Shown here: piece by piece, positions 33,287-61,462 of the stretch
How positions within the stretch are numbered: position 1 is the stretch's first letter
Layout: every line of letters begins with the position of its first letter
Source: Flavobacterium celericrescens
GTDB lineage: Bacteria; Bacteroidota; Bacteroidia; Flavobacteriales; Flavobacteriaceae
Assembly (NCBI RefSeq): GCF_011392075.1
Contig: NZ_JAAJBV010000009.1
Span: forward strand, 1-64,000
DNA length: 64,000 nt
Direction: 5' to 3'
Position numbers and translations under genes: made by a program
The notes under the pieces: model-generated
Database searches by the model: none
The model's input: only the letters and a program-made list of their open reading frames with translations
What the model was told of the DNA's origin: nothing

Positions 33287-35473
33287 ATGTCAACATTTCG
33301 CTTTCAAGCTTTAAGAAAAGCAACAGACAGAAAACCAGTTCATGTAGAAGAATTGGACAGAAAATCAGCTATTTTTGGTAGTAATGTTTTTAACGACAAA
33401 GCAATGCGACAATTTTTAACACCAGAAGCTTACAAAGCCGTTAAAGCAGCAGCAGAAGGTGTAAAAATTGATAGAAAAATAGCAGACTATATTGCTTTAG
33501 GAATGAAAGAATGGGCTTTATCAAAAGGTGTAACACATTATACACACTGGTTTCAGCCATTAACAGGAACTACTGCTGAAAAACACGATGCTTTTTTTGA
33601 AACTTTTCCTGATGGAAGCGATCCTGTTGAAAAATTTGGAGGAAGTCAATTAGTACAACAAGAACCAGATGCATCATCTTTTCCAAATGGAGGAATACGT
33701 AACACATTTGAAGCTAGAGGATATACTGCTTGGGATCCAACATCACCAGCTTTTATTTTCGGAACTACATTATGTATTCCAACGGTTTTTGTATCATATA
33801 CTGGAGAAGCACTAGATAACAAAACACCTTTATTAAGAGCGCTACATGCTATCGATTCTGCAGCTATTGATGTGGCTAAGTATTTTGACAAAAATGTAAA
33901 AAGAGTAACACCAACTTTAGGTTGGGAACAAGAATATTTCTTAGTAGACACAGCTCTAGCAAATTCAAGACCTGACTTATTAGCAACTGGAAGAACTTTA
34001 TTAGGACACACTGCCGCTAAAGGTCAACAATTAGATGACCACTATTTTGGTTCAATTCCTACACGAGTTTTAACGTATATGCGTGATTTAGAAAACGAGT
34101 GTATGTTATTAGGAATTCCTGTTAAAACCCGTCACAACGAGGTAGCGCCAAATCAATTTGAATTAGCACCTATCTTTGAAGAAATCAACTTAGCAGTAGA
34201 CCACAATTCATTATTAATGGATGTAATGCAAAAAGTTGGTGAACGTCATGATTTTAAAGTATTATTCCACGAAAAACCTTTCAAAGGAGTAAATGGTTCG
34301 GGTAAACACAATAACTGGTCTTTAGCTACAGACACAGGAATTAACCTATTAAGTCCTGGCAAAACACCAATGAGCAACTTACAATTCTTAACATTCTTCA
34401 TTAACACAATTAAAGCGGTTCATGATCACGAAGAATTATTAAGAGCTTCAATTGCTTCAGCAAGTAACGACCACCGTTTAGGAGCTAACGAAGCGCCACC
34501 AGCAATTATTTCGGTTTTCATCGGACAACAATTGACAAAAGTTTTAGCAGAACTAGAAGGTGTTTCTAAAGGAAAATTATCTCCAGAAGAAAAAACAGAT
34601 TTAAAATTAAACGTAGTAGGAAAATTACCAGACGTTTTATTAGACAATACAGACAGAAACAGAACATCTCCATTTGCTTTCACAGGAAACAAATTTGAAT
34701 TCAGAGCGGTTGGTTCTTCTGCAAACTGTGCGGTTTCTATGACGACTTTAAATACAATTGTCGCAAAGCAGTTAAAAGATTTCAAAAAAGAAGTTGATAC
34801 TTTAATTGAGAAAAAAGATTTAAAGAAAGACGAAGCTATTTTCAATGTCTTAAGAGAATATATCAAACAAACTAAAGCTATTCTTTTTGAAGGAGACGGT
34901 TATAGCGAAGCTTGGGAAAAAGAAGCTAAAAAACGTGGTTTAAGCAACCACAAAACAACACCTCAAGCATTAAAAGCAAAAGTTTCTAAAAAAGCAATTG
35001 AATTGTTTGGCGAAATGGGCGTAATGAACCATGTTGAAGTGGAAGCGCGTTACGAAATTGAGTTAGAAGAATACGTGAAAAAAATCCAAATTGAAGGAAG
35101 AATTTTAGGTGATATAGCTCGTAATCATGTGGTTCCAACAGCTATTCGCTACCAAAACGTATTAATTGAAAACGTAAAAGGTTTAAAAGAAATTTTCGGA
35201 AAAGACTTCGAGAAAATTGCTAAAGAACAAATCTCGTTAATCAAAGAAATTTCAGAACATATCGAAGGCATTAACACGAAAGTGGAAAAAATGACCGAAG
35301 AACGTAAAAAAGCAAACGCCTTAAACAGCACAGAAAAAATGGCCGATGCATATTGCGATAAAGTAAAACCATACTTCGAAGAAATTCGTTACCATGCTGA
35401 CAAATTAGAATTGTTAGTAGACGACGAACTTTGGACACTAACAAAATACAGAGAATTGTTATTTACGAAGTAA
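33287..35473 (+). CDS. glnN: Glutamine synthetase type III
   Basis: Ammonia assimilation: glutamate, NH3 and ATP give glutamine. The 728-residue protein has the length of GSIII, not GSI (about 470). GSIII hallmarks are the N-terminal MSTFRFQALRKA, WFQPLTG (THWFQPLTGTTAEKHD), the metal-binding GWEQEYFLVD near residue 213, NQFELAPIFEE, VNGSGKHNNWSL near 345 and the late NRTSPFAFTGNKFEFRAVGSS. The C-terminal 200 residues are the long GSIII helical extension. It has its own promoter and terminator. Confidence 0.97.
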   Translation: MSTFRFQALRKATDRKPVHVEELDRKSAIFGSNVFNDKAMRQFLTPEAYKAVKAAAEGVKIDRKIADYIALGMKEWALSKGVTHYTHWFQPLTGTTAEKHDAFFETFPDGSDPVEKFGGSQLVQQEPDASSFPNGGIRNTFEARGYTAWDPTSPAFIFGTTLCIPTVFVSYTGEALDNKTPLLRALHAIDSAAIDVAKYFDKNVKRVTPTLGWEQEYFLVDTALANSRPDLLATGRTLLGHTAAKGQQLDDHYFGSIPTRVLTYMRDLENECMLLGIPVKTRHNEVAPNQFELAPIFEEINLAVDHNSLLMDVMQKVGERHDFKVLFHEKPFKGVNGSGKHNNWSLATDTGINLLSPGKTPMSNLQFLTFFINTIKAVHDHEELLRASIASASNDHRLGANEAPPAIISVFIGQQLTKVLAELEGVSKGKLSPEEKTDLKLNVVGKLPDVLLDNTDRNRTSPFAFTGNKFEFRAVGSSANCAVSMTTLNTIVAKQLKDFKKEVDTLIEKKDLKKDEAIFNVLREYIKQTKAILFEGDGYSEAWEKEAKKRGLSNHKTTPQALKAKVSKKAIELFGEMGVMNHVEVEARYEIELEEYVKKIQIEGRILGDIARNHVVPTAIRYQNVLIENVKGLKEIFGKDFEKIAKEQISLIKEISEHIEGINTKVEKMTEERKKANALNSTEKMADAYCDKVKPYFEEIRYHADKLELLVDDELWTLTKYRELLFTK

Positions 35474-35545: not shown

Positions 35546-36316
35546 ATGAGAAATATTGTCTTCCTTTTTATATTAATACACTCAATATCATTTAGCCAAA
35601 ACAAGTTTACGGTGTATTTTGATACGGATTCACACCAATTACAACTTTCGGAATTAAATAAATTAGATAATTTCTTAAAAAATAAAGATGCAAAAATCCT
35701 TAAACTTATTGGCTACTGCGATTATCGTGCATCAAATGGTTACAACGACACTTTGGCGTCCAATAGAGCTAAATTTGTAAAAGGAATTATTGAAAAAGTT
35801 ACTGACCAAAAACAAATCGAAATCGAAAGTAAAGGTGAAAATTTCAAACAAAATTCCAATTTAACCTTAAACCGAAAAGTTGAAATTTATTACGAAGAAA
35901 TTCCAAAAAAAGAAATCGAAGCAGCCGCAACAAATGACTTGAACAACCAAGTTATTACTGCAAAAGTGGGTGATAAATTGGTATTAAAAAACTTGTATTT
36001 TTATAATCGCTCTGGAGTTTTCAGACCTGAATCTAGACCAGTTCTTGAAGAGTTATTAGCAGTTATGAAAAAACATCCAAAACTAAAAATTGAAATCCAA
36101 GGTCATATTTGTTGTCAAGAAGGAACCGATATTGAAAACACATCAGAAGTTAGAGCTCTTGCCGTTTATAATTACCTAAAAGCCAACAATATTGACCCTA
36201 ACAGACTTAGTTACAAAAGTTTTGGAAGTACAAAACCAATCCATAAAATTCCAGAAAAAAACGAAGAAGAAAGAAATGAAAATCGCAGAGTAGAAATTCA
36301 AATTATTGAAAATTAA
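35546..36316 (+). CDS. Secreted protein with two OmpA-like domains (tandem paralogue 1)
   Basis: A 256-residue protein with the signal peptide MRNIVFLFILIHSISFS. Residues about 20-120 form a first OmpA C-terminal-like, peptidoglycan-binding domain (FTVYFDTDSHQL, then GYCDYRASNGYNDTLASNRA, then NRKVEIYYEE). Residues about 145-256 form a second one (LKIEIQGHICC, then SEVRALAVYNYLKANNI, then RLSYKSFGSTKPI, then NENRRVEIQI). In the second domain the usual GH(T/S)D is GHICC, so the acidic residue is replaced by cysteine. There is no transmembrane barrel or TM anchor. The next gene has the same double architecture. Confidence 0.85.
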   Translation: MRNIVFLFILIHSISFSQNKFTVYFDTDSHQLQLSELNKLDNFLKNKDAKILKLIGYCDYRASNGYNDTLASNRAKFVKGIIEKVTDQKQIEIESKGENFKQNSNLTLNRKVEIYYEEIPKKEIEAAATNDLNNQVITAKVGDKLVLKNLYFYNRSGVFRPESRPVLEELLAVMKKHPKLKIEIQGHICCQEGTDIENTSEVRALAVYNYLKANNIDPNRLSYKSFGSTKPIHKIPEKNEEERNENRRVEIQIIEN

Positions 36317-36372
36317 CTTTGGCATACTTTTATATGTATTAAATTTGTTGTTAATTCGTAAAAAAGTTAAAA

Positions 36373-37194
36373 ATGAAGATTGCCTTTTCAATTCTATTTT
36401 TCTGCTATGGTTTTTGTGTTTTTGCACAAGAAAAATTTACGGTGTACTTTGATTCCGACAAGTTTGATTTAACCCAAAAAGAAAATAAACGATTGCAAGA
36501 GTGGATTACACTAAATCCAACCTCAAAAATACTTACAATGGAAGGCTTTACAGATGAAGTAGGTTCGAATGGATATAACGACACTTTATCTAAAAAAAGA
36601 GTAGATTTTATATATAATTTAGTTCAAAACAAAGTTGCTATTCGTGAAGATTTTAAAAGTAGAAGTTTTGGTGAAACACAACAAGTTTCAAAAATAAAAG
36701 CAGAAAATAGAAAAGTAATCATTTACTATTTATTGGAAAAAGATTTATCTAAAGAAAATGAAATTTTAGGCATCAAAGAGGAAATCATAGAAGAAGTCAT
36801 TATTCCGGAAAATGCTACACTTGAAGAAAAAGTAAAACTGGCAAAAGTGGGTACAAAAATTGTCTTAAAAAATATTAATTTTTATCAAAACACCTTTGCA
36901 ACGGTTCCAGAATCACAAGGCGCTATGTACGATTTATTATATGTGATGCAAAACAATGAAGGACTTAAAATCGAAATTCAAGGGCACATTTGTTGTATTG
37001 ATAAAGATTACCGAAATTTATCGGCTGATAGAGCCAAACAAATTAAACGTTTTTTAGTATATAATGGCATTCCACAACACCGCATTCAAACTAAAGGTTT
37101 TGGTGTTTCGCAACCAATTTACCCTATCCCAGAAGCAAGTGAAGCCCAAGCTGCTGCAAACAGAAGAGTAGAAATTGAAATTTTAAGTAAATAA
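36373..37194 (+). CDS. Secreted protein with two OmpA-like domains (tandem paralogue 2)
   Basis: A 273-residue paralogue of the preceding gene. It has the signal peptide MKIAFSILFFCYGFCVFA and a first OmpA-like domain with FTVYFDSDKFDLTQKE and GFTDEVGSNGYNDTLSKKR. The second domain has LKIEIQGHICCIDKDY, NLSADRAKQIKRFLVYNGIPQHRIQTKGFG and AAANRRVEIEI. The GHICC variant is shared, so it predates the duplication or is selected. It starts 56 nt after paralogue 1 and ends 4 nt before a small lipoprotein gene, so the three likely form one operon. A structural link between envelope and peptidoglycan is the simplest reading. Confidence 0.85.
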   Translation: MKIAFSILFFCYGFCVFAQEKFTVYFDSDKFDLTQKENKRLQEWITLNPTSKILTMEGFTDEVGSNGYNDTLSKKRVDFIYNLVQNKVAIREDFKSRSFGETQQVSKIKAENRKVIIYYLLEKDLSKENEILGIKEEIIEEVIIPENATLEEKVKLAKVGTKIVLKNINFYQNTFATVPESQGAMYDLLYVMQNNEGLKIEIQGHICCIDKDYRNLSADRAKQIKRFLVYNGIPQHRIQTKGFGVSQPIYPIPEASEAQAAANRRVEIEILSK

Positions 37195-37198
37195 GAAT

Positions 37199-37642
37199 AT
37201 GAGAAAATATTTTCCTTTTTTAGTCATTATTATTGCATTTTTAAATACCAATTGTGACAAATGTGTTGAAGGTGATCTTGTAGCGCCTGCTTCCATTTTT
37301 GTAGAAATTCTTGATGAAACTTCTTCTGAAAATGTATTTGAAAATGAAACATTTACTGCTACACAAATTTCAATAAAAGATGCAGAAGATGTAGCCGTTC
37401 CTTTTAATTTTATTCCGAATACCAATCAAATTCAAATATTTCCAAACACTGAAAATTTAACTGGAAATACATTCATTATCACTTTAAACAACGAAACTAC
37501 ATCAACTATTGAGGAAATTACAATTACTCATGATGTAACAGCTAAAGAGCAAGAATGCTATACCACCTATAAAATTGAAAATGTTCAAGTCCCAAATAAT
37601 ACTTCTGAGTTAATTGATGGTATTTATGTAATAAAAATTTAA
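37199..37642 (+). CDS. Small lipoprotein of unknown function
   Basis: A 147-residue protein starting MRKYFPFLVIIIAFLNTNC, a lipoprotein signal ending at C19, with a further Cys just after (CDKC). The mature domain is beta-rich and acidic (ILDETSSENVFENETFTATQISIKD). It could be an Ig-like or carboxypeptidase-like fold, but I recognise no family. It follows the double-OmpA gene by 4 nt and may anchor or assist those proteins at a membrane. Confidence 0.6.
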   Translation: MRKYFPFLVIIIAFLNTNCDKCVEGDLVAPASIFVEILDETSSENVFENETFTATQISIKDAEDVAVPFNFIPNTNQIQIFPNTENLTGNTFIITLNNETTSTIEEITITHDVTAKEQECYTTYKIENVQVPNNTSELIDGIYVIKI

Positions 37643-37717: not shown

Positions 37718-38896
37718 ATGAGTTCTGATACGAGCAAACGCTACAATTTAAGAGGAGTTTCGGCTTCTAAAGAAGATGTGCACCAAGCTATCAAAAACAT
37801 CGACAAAGGCTTATTTCCACAAGCATTTTGTAAAATTATCCCTGATTATTTAACAAACGACGACCAATATTGCATCATTATGCACGCTGATGGCGCAGGA
37901 ACAAAGTCTTCCTTAGCCTATATGTATTGGAAAGAAACAGGCGATATTTCAGTTTGGAAAGGAATTGCTCAAGACGCTTTAATCATGAATATTGATGATT
38001 TATTATGTGTTGGAGCAACGGATAATATTTTGCTTTCATCAACTATCGGAAGAAACAAAAATTTAATTCCTGGCGAAGTTATTTCTGCTATCATCAACGG
38101 AACGGAAGAATTAATATCGGAATTAAAAAATCACGGAGTTACTATTCATTCAACAGGAGGTGAAACTGCTGATGTAGGTGATTTAGTTCGAACAATTATT
38201 GTAGATTCAACAGTAACAGCTCGCATGAAACGTGCAGATGTGATTGATAATGCGAATATTCAAGCTGGTGATGTAATTGTAGGTTTGGCTTCTTTCGGTC
38301 AAGCTACTTACGAAAAAGAATATAATGGCGGAATGGGAAGCAACGGCCTAACTTCGGCTCGTCATGATGTTTTTGCCAAATATTTAGCTGAGAAATATCC
38401 AGAAAGTTTTGATGCTTCAGTTCCAAATGAATTGGTGTATTCAGGTCAAACTAAATTAACTGATGCTGTTGGAAATAGTCCAATTGACGCTGGAAAATTA
38501 GTGCTTTCTCCAACAAGAACATACGCTCCTGTTATCAAAAAGATTTTATCAAAATACAATTCAAATCAAATTCACGGAATGGTACATTGTAGTGGAGGAG
38601 CACAAACAAAAGTGCTTCACTTCGTAGACAATGTTCACGTGATTAAAGATAATTTATTTCCAGTGCCACCTTTGTTCCAATTAATTCAAGAACAATCAAA
38701 AACTGATTGGAAAGAAATGTATCAAGTGTTCAATTGTGGTCACCGCATGGAATTATACGTTCCTGCAGAAGTAGCACAAGATATCATCGAGATTTCAAAA
38801 TCATTCAACATCGACACACAGATAGTAGGAAGAGTAGAGAAATCTGATAGCAAGAAATTAACAATTACATCCGAATACGGAACATTTGAATATTAA
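37718..38896 (+). CDS. purM: Phosphoribosylformylglycinamidine cyclo-ligase (AIR synthetase, long form)
   Basis: Purine synthesis step 5: FGAM plus ATP gives AIR. The 392-residue protein is longer than the usual 345 but is the form I expect in Bacteroidota. Evidence is the early SKRYNLRGVSASKEDVHQAI, the PurM-fold block HADGAGTKSSLAYMYW and MNIDDLLCVGATDN, HSTGGETADVGD near residue 148, VIVGLASFGQA, and the C-terminal ATP-grasp-like NCGHRMELYV. Extra residues near 205-250 account for the length. guaA follows, so purM and guaA may be read together. Confidence 0.85.
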   Translation: MSSDTSKRYNLRGVSASKEDVHQAIKNIDKGLFPQAFCKIIPDYLTNDDQYCIIMHADGAGTKSSLAYMYWKETGDISVWKGIAQDALIMNIDDLLCVGATDNILLSSTIGRNKNLIPGEVISAIINGTEELISELKNHGVTIHSTGGETADVGDLVRTIIVDSTVTARMKRADVIDNANIQAGDVIVGLASFGQATYEKEYNGGMGSNGLTSARHDVFAKYLAEKYPESFDASVPNELVYSGQTKLTDAVGNSPIDAGKLVLSPTRTYAPVIKKILSKYNSNQIHGMVHCSGGAQTKVLHFVDNVHVIKDNLFPVPPLFQLIQEQSKTDWKEMYQVFNCGHRMELYVPAEVAQDIIEISKSFNIDTQIVGRVEKSDSKKLTITSEYGTFEY

Positions 38897-58561: not shown

Positions 58562-58933
58562 ATGTCGAATTGTTATTGCGGAAATTCCATTCCTTTTCAA
58601 GATTGTTGCGAACCTTATATTAAAGGAATTGCTAATGCTCCAACTGCCGAAAAATTAATGCGTTCTCGTTACAGCGCTTTTGCAACCGGTGCCGCTGATT
58701 ATTTGGTAAACACTACTCACATTTCTAAAAGACGCTACCACAACAAAAAAGATATATTAGCTTGGAGTCAAGCCAACAAATGGTTAAAATTAGAAGTTTT
58801 GGCTTCAACTGAAACCACGGTAACTTTCAAAGCCTATTATTTAGATGAAAATTTAAAAGCGCAAGTACATTATGAACATTCTACTTTTAAATTCGAAAAT
58901 AATAGATGGTTTTATGTAGATGGAGAATATTAA
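58562..58933 (+). CDS. ychJ: YchJ-family SEC-C motif protein
   Basis: A 123-residue protein of the YchJ (UPF0225) family. The N-terminal SEC-C zinc motif is CYCGNSIPFQDCCEPYIKG (Cys at 4, 6, 15 and 16). The following NTF2-like domain has PTAEKLMRSRYSAFATG and DYLVNTTH, and ends VHYEHSTFKFENNRWFYVDGEY, all family-typical. It is shorter than E. coli YchJ (about 150) because the C-terminal second SEC-C motif is absent. It closes the DUF1543 / 46-aa / ychJ unit; its stop overlaps that of the GyrI-like gene by 4 nt. Confidence 0.9.
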   Translation: MSNCYCGNSIPFQDCCEPYIKGIANAPTAEKLMRSRYSAFATGAADYLVNTTHISKRRYHNKKDILAWSQANKWLKLEVLASTETTVTFKAYYLDENLKAQVHYEHSTFKFENNRWFYVDGEY

Positions 58934-59406
58934 ATTCTCTTTTTGATTGGAATCCAAATTTCCTCTTCAGAATCAGGAGCATTATTTTTATATTTTTCTC
59001 CTAACATTTCAAATTGAGGACGATTGTCTAATTCATATTCGGAATTTGGCAACCAAACACCAAAAATATAACCAAATGTTTCTCTTGCTTTTGAAACATC
59101 TCCAATATGATTGAAAACTGCATACAAACCTTCCTCAATAATTAATGACTGCATTCCTTCGGGTATAAAATCAAAATCTGACACAGGAACCACAGCCCAT
59201 TTTACAAATTTGGTTTGTGGATTGAAATCAAAATTTTCAGGATTGATTTGAATGTTGAATAAATCTGTGCCTAAAGCATTTTGAATTTCATTTCGTCTTG
59301 GCATAAAACTACTCCATAACTCAAAAGCACGATAATCAGTATAACTAAATGAAAGATTTTTACCTATAAATTTTGTCTCGGGAAATATTTTAATGGTTGG
59401 TTTCAT
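58930..59406 (-). CDS. GyrI-like / AraC-effector-binding-domain protein
   Basis: A 158-residue single-domain protein of the GyrI-like small-molecule-binding (SHS2/BmrR-effector) superfamily. Cues are the early FIGKNLSFSYTDYRAFELWSSFMPRRNEI, the central KWAVVPVSDFDFIPEGMQSLIIEEGLYAVFNHIG and the late FGVWLPNSEYELDNRPQFEMLGEKY with EEIWIPIKK. The LPNSxYxLDxRPxFE block and the closing (I/V)WIP(I/V)K are typical. No DNA-binding domain is attached. Its start overlaps the PP2C stop by 4 nt, so it is translated with the kinase/phosphatase pair. Confidence 0.85.
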   Translation of the reverse strand: MKPTIKIFPETKFIGKNLSFSYTDYRAFELWSSFMPRRNEIQNALGTDLFNIQINPENFDFNPQTKFVKWAVVPVSDFDFIPEGMQSLIIEEGLYAVFNHIGDVSKARETFGYIFGVWLPNSEYELDNRPQFEMLGEKYKNNAPDSEEEIWIPIKKRI

Positions 59407-60110
59407 TTAATATTGTACTGATAAATCAAAAATGAATTATTATCTGTCAATTCTTTATTCTTTAAACTTATAACAAATCCCTCATAACAATCTAACAATG
59501 ATGTCTTATGCCTAATCGAAATATTTACTAATTCTTGTTTAGGCATTACATCATGAAATCCATCAGTTGATATTAGAATCCTATCATTATCTTCTAAATC
59601 AAATGTAAAATCATCAATTGATAAATTTTCAATACCAACTGCATTCTCTAAAATATTCTTAAATTTCAGCGATTTATAATCTTCAATAGAAATGATTCCT
59701 GCTTTTAAAGCTCTGTAAGCTGAAGTATGAGGTTTTGTAAGCTGTTTAATACCATTTCTACGCAAAATACATAACCTACTGTCTCCTATATGAAATCCAT
59801 AAAGTTTAGAATCTTTAACTAAAAAAACAGTAAATGTAGTTGCCATGTCTGAAAATTCAGGTTGTTTCTGTAATTCTAAAACTTTTAGATTAATTAAAAT
59901 TATATTATTTTTAATTTCGTTCAAATTACTCAAATTTTCATACTTCAAAAATTCGTCAACTACAAATTTTGAAACAAATCCCCCATTTTTATTACCTCCG
60001 ACTCCGTCAGCTATACAAGCAATAAAAAAATCAGGCATAACTTTATACCCTAAATAATCTTGATTCTCCTTTCTTGGACCAATATCAGAATATTTAAAAA
60101 CTAAACTCAT
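59403..60110 (-). CDS. PP2C-type Ser/Thr protein phosphatase
   Basis: A 235-residue, metal-dependent PP2C phosphatase without membrane segment. Motifs are GPRKENQD (11-18) with the phosphate-binding Arg, IADGVGG with metal-binding D35 and G36, MATTFTVFLV, FHIGDSRLCILR, a second metal-binding SxDG motif as ISTDGFHDVM near residue 180, and LTDNNSF with the last Asp near the C-terminus. All metal ligands needed for activity are present. It overlaps the kinase gene upstream and the GyrI-like gene downstream by 4 nt each; the adjacent kinase is the likely antagonist. Confidence 0.92.
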   Translation of the reverse strand: MSLVFKYSDIGPRKENQDYLGYKVMPDFFIACIADGVGGNKNGGFVSKFVVDEFLKYENLSNLNEIKNNIILINLKVLELQKQPEFSDMATTFTVFLVKDSKLYGFHIGDSRLCILRRNGIKQLTKPHTSAYRALKAGIISIEDYKSLKFKNILENAVGIENLSIDDFTFDLEDNDRILISTDGFHDVMPKQELVNISIRHKTSLLDCYEGFVISLKNKELTDNNSFLIYQYNIK

Positions 60111-61462
60111 TGTATTTTCTTATAAGCTTCTATTAATAGTGGATGCAATTCATTAACATTTAAACCAATTGAATACTCTAAATGCTCAATAGCTCTCTTT
60201 GTTTTATACCTATTAAACTTAAATTCTAATGCTAATCTTTTTGCTAAGTTATCATTTAATCCATCATAAGTAACATAATTTGCAAACATTCTTTCAACAT
60301 AAAATCTATTGTGAGATGTTCCTAAAAACAATAATGTTATTAAACATTGTACTTTTGATGTCATATTCATTTGATTAAGTGGTGTTGATTCATAAAGCAA
60401 CTTAACTTTATAAGCAAGAATATCACAATAATTAAAATTAAAACCTGATTTATCATCAATCCATTTACTATGAACATTAGCTAATTCATCTAATTTATGG
60501 TAATTTATAGAAATTAAATATTGAATATGTCTTGAACTTAAAGCAAAATGTAATGAATCTGAATATTCATTTTGCAAAATCATTTTCGATAATAGTAAGT
60601 CCCAATCTTCAATTTTAGTACTTTCAAAATCATTATTCTCAAGAAAATCAAAGTCACCATCTTCAAAACTTATAATGTGATTATCATTAAAATTTAAATT
60701 AAAAATATCATTTCTTAATTCATCTACAGAAATGTATCTATCTTCTTTTTTATCTTTTGTACAATTCGACAAAATTTGACTCCATATACTATTTTTAACA
60801 ATAATCTCTCTCATAGGAGGTCTTGGATCATCAGGAAAGAATAAATCATGAATTACACAACCAACTGAATAAATATCACTTTGTAAAGTTGCATTTTTAA
60901 AATCTATATGTAATTCTAAAGCTGTGTAATGATCATCCGATTTTTGAGTACCTGTTAAGGTTAATGACGTTGAAGAATTATTCTGTTTAGAGATTAATCC
61001 AAAATCACTAATTGCATAATAAAATGTATCACCATCTTTTAACTTTAATATGTTACTTGGTTTAATATCTCTATGACATAATCCTAAATCATGAATTGAT
61101 TCAAGCCCGTTTAATACATCATATATAATATTGATTTTTTGAGCATTTGTTAATGATTTCAAATCTAACTCTTCTTTCAAAGTACATTCAGCTAAAGGCA
61201 TTATGTAAAACATTGGTTCATTGTCAAAATCATATGAAATAATTTGCACTATGTTTCTTGACTGAAAATCTTCTTGAGTTAGTGTTTCTCTAATAAATCT
61301 TTTTTTGAAGTGACCAATTTCTTCATCACTTGGAATATAATCTTGATTTATTGAAAATATTTTTAATGCATATGTGTCTCCTAATTCATCAACAACTTTA
61401 AATACAGTGCCATATCCACCTTTTCCTTTTTCTTCAACAACTTCATAATTTTTATATTTCAT
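60107..61462 (-). CDS. Hanks-type Ser/Thr protein kinase
   Basis: A 451-residue cytoplasmic kinase. The catalytic domain (about 6-265) has the glycine loop GKGGYGTVFKV (13-23), K34 in YALKIF, alpha-C Glu E59, catalytic HRDIKPSN (130-137) and DFG (153-155). The APE motif is changed to TALELH, and SDIYSVGCVIHDLF follows. Residues about 280-451 form a soluble helical domain of unknown type, with no TM segment, PASTA or TPR repeat; this differs from PknB-type kinases. It begins 9 nt after icmF and overlaps the PP2C gene by 4 nt. The catalytic residues predict an active enzyme. Confidence 0.92.
   Translation of the reverse strand: MKYKNYEVVEEKGKGGYGTVFKVVDELGDTYALKIFSINQDYIPSDEEIGHFKKRFIRETLTQEDFQSRNIVQIISYDFDNEPMFYIMPLAECTLKEELDLKSLTNAQKINIIYDVLNGLESIHDLGLCHRDIKPSNILKLKDGDTFYYAISDFGLISKQNNSSTSLTLTGTQKSDDHYTALELHIDFKNATLQSDIYSVGCVIHDLFFPDDPRPPMREIIVKNSIWSQILSNCTKDKKEDRYISVDELRNDIFNLNFNDNHIISFEDGDFDFLENNDFESTKIEDWDLLLSKMILQNEYSDSLHFALSSRHIQYLISINYHKLDELANVHSKWIDDKSGFNFNYCDILAYKVKLLYESTPLNQMNMTSKVQCLITLLFLGTSHNRFYVERMFANYVTYDGLNDNLAKRLALEFKFNRYKTKRAIEHLEYSIGLNVNELHPLLIEAYKKIQ

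Follow-up and report, generated by a model that had tools for sequence, protein, structure and literature searches.

Few wall anchors of Gram-negative bacteria are as well known as the OmpA-like domain, whose hallmark is taken to be an acid together with an arginine. What such a domain does once the acid has given way to two adjacent cysteines is the question raised by a pair of neighboring genes in the window examined here, a 64,000-nucleotide stretch of contig 9 of a 2.80 Mb Flavobacterium genome assembly (38 contigs). The answer favored below, to which we assign a probability of roughly 0.45, is that both gene products are soluble periplasmic adaptors bound to peptidoglycan, in which the first domain would grip diaminopimelate (DAP) and the second would bind a different partner through an Arg and its vicinal cysteines.

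Paired OmpA-like domains in two secreted proteins

Two adjacent forward-strand genes encode the paralogues P1 (256 residues, 35546–36316) and P2 (273 residues, 36373–37194). As the original prediction held, open reading frames and Pfam matches describe two secreted proteins that lack a barrel and contain a pair of OmpA-like domains, each protein presumably starting with a signal peptide. The Pfam OmpA profile (PF00691, cut-off 27.2 bits) matches two stretches of each protein, with whole-protein scores of 87.4 and 79.3 bits, and in a scan of the genome all four domains individually exceed the cut-off. The first domain (D1; 35615–35872 in P1, 36445–36708 in P2) scores 36.4 bits in P1 and 40.5 bits in P2, and the second (D2; 35996–36277 in P1, 36880–37140 in P2) scores 55.1 and 43.1 bits. 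No further Pfam domain lies above its cut-off in either protein, a DUF223 match in P2 reaching 15.6 bits against 24.6.

D1 carries the motif GYCD in P1 and GFTD in P2. In both proteins D2 reads GHICC (residues 186–190 of P1 and 204–208 of P2) in place of the canonical GHxD and keeps the Arg of the RA motif that follows (R203 and R220), all of which agrees with the first description of the locus. The vicinal pairs, Cys189-Cys190 in P1 and Cys207-Cys208 in P2, are each encoded by TGT TGT, at 36110–36115 and 36991–36996, respectively. The genome scan located a third double-OmpA gene with the cysteine pair (CC) on contig 1 of the same assembly (GYCDDRG...GHVCCTP).

The AlphaFold model of P2 (mfb980aff9ca0) has a pLDDT of 90.8 and a pTM of 0.56, the latter leaving the arrangement of the domains uncertain. 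Structure comparison with the modeled D2 gives the best Z score, 16.5, for the Klebsiella OmpA domain 7RJJ, and scores of 14.8 for the Acinetobacter baumannii OmpA-peptide complex 3TD5 and 14.6 for PorE of the type IX secretion system (6TOP). The alignments to peptide-binding OmpA domains extend over approximately 113 residues at Z scores of 14 to 16.5. That D2 is OmpA-like at all was a premise of the original prediction, and the PF00691 profile and the predicted fold concur on it: as modeled, D2 is an OmpA fold.

P1 and P2 resemble the canonical OmpA C-terminal-like domain (PF00691; 3TD5) in the profile of both domains, the predicted fold of D2 and the DAP triad of D1. They differ from it in their tandem arrangement without barrel or lipid anchor, and in a D2 that has CC and lacks the Asp and Asn. 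PorE is likewise a periplasmic Bacteroidota protein with an OmpA-like domain, but P1 and P2 contain no other domains, and their scores for its NCBIfam model, NF052230, are 56.0 and 61.2 bits where the cut-off is 600. The best NCBIfam match is YiaD (NF053611; 106.4 and 97.5 bits, cut-off 175), and Pal (TIGR02802) yields 73.2 and 69.5 bits against 125.35. Pal and YiaD are lipoproteins that share a periplasmic OmpA domain, whereas the signal peptides of P1 and P2, as we read them, have no evident lipobox. Three proteins from a single family tag of the class (f8; L225–L227), which we take to be PorE-like, also combine two OmpA-like domains in one chain, but theirs follow a long upstream region and carry SHTD and GHTD with no CC; they provide a natural control architecture. 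The double-OmpA CC family itself is recognized by Pfam and NCBIfam as no more than generic OmpA, and text searches of an open-access collection of papers on the OmpA motif, tandem domains and vicinal cysteines returned no description of it. A simple rule, GHxCC following a first GxxD domain, would serve to name the family.

Conservation, distribution and origin of the cysteine pair

The original prediction also depended on CC being conserved beyond this strain, which it is. The pair is present in 237 of 243 distinct full-length double-OmpA ORFs, a count that covers every such ORF in all collected loci, with a profile built from CC-bearing rows and with 80 of the 243 rows from the near clade. 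The motif reads GHVCC in 122 of these, GHICC in 104, GHLCC in 10 and GYICC in one, GH preceding the cysteines in 236 of 237. The six ORFs without CC are L225–L227 with their canonical motifs, the weak and divergent L224 and L228, and L123. As a test for bias, 60 further regions were sampled from the taxonomic family to which the window belongs, most of them taken from the low-scoring part of the match list; all 57 new full-length ORFs have CC (L238 is partial, and L266 and L284 are repeats). CC is also found in 40 of 41 near-full-length class-wide matches from 20 family tags. A first alignment of 114 rows had been pre-filtered for GHxCC, and its 114/114 carries no evidential weight. Since the cysteine swap recurs in relatives from many families, it looks like a real variant and not a local oddity.

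The class-wide exception, L123 (1498–2298, reverse strand), belongs to the genus of the window and is the sole near relative read with its second Cys swapped (GHVCY). As a natural single-Cys variant it should be handy for comparison. In Flavobacterium covae AL-02-36 the relative of P2 (L088:5995–6873) is spread over three short frames, either because the copy is broken or through an error in sequencing.

A search at the DNA level for [ILV][QE]GH[VILM]CC found 27 places in 19 of 395 phylum genomes, compared with one genome for the reversed control pattern. Double-OmpA ORFs contain 22 of the 27 places; of the remainder, one lies in an unrelated short frame (L089) and four in no ORF of at least 60 residues (L100, L105–L107), so that five of the 19 positive genomes look like chance.

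With P2 as a single query sequence, 141 of the 299 genomes of the window's family have a match at E 1e-10, the matches including other OmpA proteins; named genomes yielded 45 loci, almost all titled as Flavobacterium or Flavobacteriaceae. With a profile of 23 diverse members and a threshold of E ≤ 1e-40, matches were found in 129 of the 299 family genomes, spanning 106 of 236 genera. The gene is therefore dispensable, given that more than half of the family's genomes (170/299) have no match at E 1e-40. Outside the genus, 121 of 127 matched family genomes have a single match at that threshold. Across the class, a draw of 295 genomes contained the 41 near-full-length matches mentioned above (E < 1e-45). 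Of 390 genomes drawn from the phylum, 26 matched at E 1e-40: 19 belong to the window's own genus, three to its family, three to its order and one to its class, with no match beyond the class. The family is thus widespread yet patchy, and seen in this class only. Two MAG contigs titled Bifidobacterium breve (L075) and Sphingobacterium thalpophilum (L086) contain a Flavobacterium-type double-OmpA locus; these contigs are probably mislabelled or mixed bins.

In a tree calculated without the CC columns (34 D2, 34 D1 and three canonical domains), D2s split from D1s and canonical domains with an SH-aLRT of 99, the exception being the very long D1 branch of L228, which is placed among the D2s. The tree is a quick one, with few canonical controls and 41 of its 68 inner branches open. 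Mapped onto it, the CC state (31 rows with, 40 without) requires five changes, and three of the 34 D2s are without CC. Because D2s group apart even when the CC columns are removed, one old origin is likely, and the sequences suggest a single origin of the variant followed by later losses. The D2 CC domain is a real, widely kept and little-noticed variant of the OmpA-like domain, and probably an old one.

The diaminopimelate site in D1 and D2

DAP is held by the side chains of Asp576, Asn584 and Arg591 in PorE (PMC7192894) and by D271 and R286 in A. baumannii OmpA (PMC6572160), and the numbering of both proteins places Asp and Arg 15 residues apart. PorE thus retains all three residues, which D2 does not.

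D1 of both P1 and P2 has the complete triad in the alignment. The same is broadly true of 181 CC-bearing sequences, drawn from 187 and hence a set chosen for CC, in which D1 has Asp in 177 (Asn in four), Asn in 181 and Arg in 181. In the full set of 243 ORFs the D1 Asp is absent in 15 (12 Asn, two Ser, one Glu), and binding by D1 may accordingly vary. A Cys stands just ahead of the acid position in 139 of the 243 D1s, and is absent in P2 and many others.

D2 presents a different picture. The Arg of the DAP site is invariant (181/181, and 243/243 in the full ORF set), the Asp position is occupied by Cys in all 181 sequences with a second Cys next to it, and Asn at Arg-7 is found in just four. 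The distance from the first Cys to the Arg is 11–15 residues in 100 sequences (exactly 15 in one) and 21–25 in the other 81, differing from the canonical value in 180 of 181, so that the pocket loop is either shorter or longer than usual. Taken together, the lost residues and changed spacing indicate that the pocket has been remodeled as a whole and not at a single residue. The suggestion that D2 may have lost its grip on DAP is therefore backed at the sequence level for the canonical mode, with Arg kept and Asp and Asn gone. A conserved CC branch located beside a canonical-looking D1 makes non-DAP ligands of OmpA-like domains directly testable, and these proteins offer a handle on the thiol chemistry of the Bacteroidia envelope.

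Candidate partners and the role of D2

The small predicted lipoprotein (147 residues, mostly β; 37199–37642, forward strand) starts 4 nt past the P2 stop codon, at the distance originally given. The P1 side of the locus is flanked by a glutamine synthetase III gene (33287–35473; the gene type follows from Pfam on a relative's copy), and the gene beyond the lipoprotein (37718–38896) is presumably purM. In the 45 near loci, purM lies downstream in 43 and glutamine synthetase III was found in 24, several loci being short. The number of tandem double-OmpA copies is one in 15 loci, two in 16, three in 10 and four in one, with three broken or cut. A lipoprotein homolog follows the double-OmpA genes within 48 nt in 23 of the 45. 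Among the ORFs of all loci collected, such homologs come solely from these near loci and from L096, of the same genus, with a weak match in L022 (E 0.0094); many of the wider loci carried just 1.5 kb of flank in this search. The proposal that the lipoprotein is a membrane partner is hence plausible for the near clade, while elsewhere the protein is hardly found.

An alignment of 24 lipoproteins shows invariant cysteines at C22, C120 and the presumed site of lipidation. Assignment to a known family was rejected, no Pfam or NCBIfam model matching above cut-off (a T9SS sorting-tail match reaches 16.6 bits against 23). The β-rich model (pLDDT 86.2) gave nothing better than E 0.09 against the PDB. 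P1, P2 and the lipoprotein are all exported with conserved cysteines from a genome in which the two oxidant families covered by the search, DsbA (PF01323) and VKOR (PF07884), have no match at E 0.001.

A different neighbor appears in a second branch. In 13 of 41 loci (the third copy of this genome, 20 class loci and 20 family loci), the double-OmpA gene is preceded on its own strand by one encoding an S41 protease with a PDZ domain, as recognized by Pfam (L116:7678–10604; L168, L171, L174, L177–L182, L184–L186). What we take to be rnpA lies near the pair in 12 of the 13. A DUF4349 protein is encoded between the two genes in three loci (Pfam on L182 only), and a cluster with a LysM lytic transglycosylase lies near the pair in this genome, L181 and L182 (Pfam on L181 only). 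The protease was rejected as a universal partner, since it adjoins in 13 of 41 loci and the neighbors differ elsewhere. Those include an aminotransferase, Mrp/NADH antiporter subunits, a P-type ATPase, an amino-acid permease and a photolyase, among others. The Pfam scan covered 20 proteins of 489 called genes, the non-S41 ones being varied and mostly not envelope-specific. As neighbors vary by branch, no single partner is supported.

In the adaptors favored here, D1 would clamp the protein onto the peptidoglycan stem peptide, and D2 would have given up DAP binding in the standard mode. The Arg and the cysteine pair of D2, the latter either a dithiol or joined in a vicinal disulfide that forms a rigid platform, would instead meet another envelope partner, perhaps wall glycan or a protein, which could differ between branches. 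In the Flavobacterium clade the downstream lipoprotein is a candidate for this role, by which wall and outer membrane would be linked; in the other branch the adjacent S41 processing protease is a candidate. A vicinal disulfide at a glycan-binding surface is described (PMC7782687) for another exported Bacteroidota protein, Bt1762 (Cys298-Cys299).

Other roles for D2 have to be weighed against this one. His-x-Cys-Cys and the Arg might serve as ligands for a soft metal; alternatively, the dithiol might alternate between reduced and oxidized forms and in this way report envelope redox from its place on the wall. The near-invariant GH ahead of CC fits such a thiol or metal site, and so does the finding that the pair is the only Cys of the mature protein, its start approximated from the position of the D1 motif, in 65 of 181 sequences. 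On the latter count a third Cys was rejected as a fixed partner across the family. The missing DsbA and VKOR matches in the genome point the same way, and the thiols may stay reduced. However, canonical domains encoded in this genome likewise have GH, followed there by x-D or x-N (GHTDSDG, GHTNIGG), so that the His alone says little about a metal site. The GHVCY of L123 speaks against such a site, as does the absence from the 20 scanned neighbor proteins of any metal-resistance or redox protein save a P-type cation ATPase, and we consider this role doubtful. A counterpoint to our preferred adaptors is that the kept Arg of D2 could support a different mode of peptidoglycan binding. The resized loop would then owe its shape to a structural vicinal disulfide between the cysteines, and D2 would hold on to the wall in a changed orientation, either through a DAP carboxylate contacted by its Arg or through the glycan strand, so that the protein would be attached to the wall at two points. 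The carboxylate-binding Arg present in every D2 and the long alignment to peptide-binding OmpA domains are consistent with retained wall binding, but two of the three DAP-contacting side chains are missing in nearly all D2s and the spacing is almost never 15, which makes it rather unlikely.

It is also conceivable, if distinctly unlikely, that D2 is a separate Bacteroidia OmpA subfamily whose pocket was converted once, early, to a redox switch (dithiol or vicinal disulfide), D1 staying bound to the wall while the grip of D2 on lipoprotein, glycan or protease depended on redox state. Intermolecular disulfides between monomers or partners, giving wall-bound oligomers, would suit the tandem paralogues (one to four per locus) and the invariant C22 and C120 of the lipoprotein. 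Yet most matched family genomes outside the genus have a single match, lipoprotein homologs are almost confined to the near clade, and adjacent cysteines are an unusual route to one intermolecular bond; we give this little credence. That D2 is a decaying copy in which CC arose by chance or drift might be read from the relatives that lack the pair (L123, and the weak and divergent L224 and L228), but the near-universal retention of CC in the full ORF set, the family sample and the class-wide matches renders decay very unlikely indeed.

Elsewhere in the window, the reverse strand at 58930–61462 encodes what we take to be an adjacent Ser/Thr protein kinase, a PP2C-type phosphatase and a small effector-binding-like protein.
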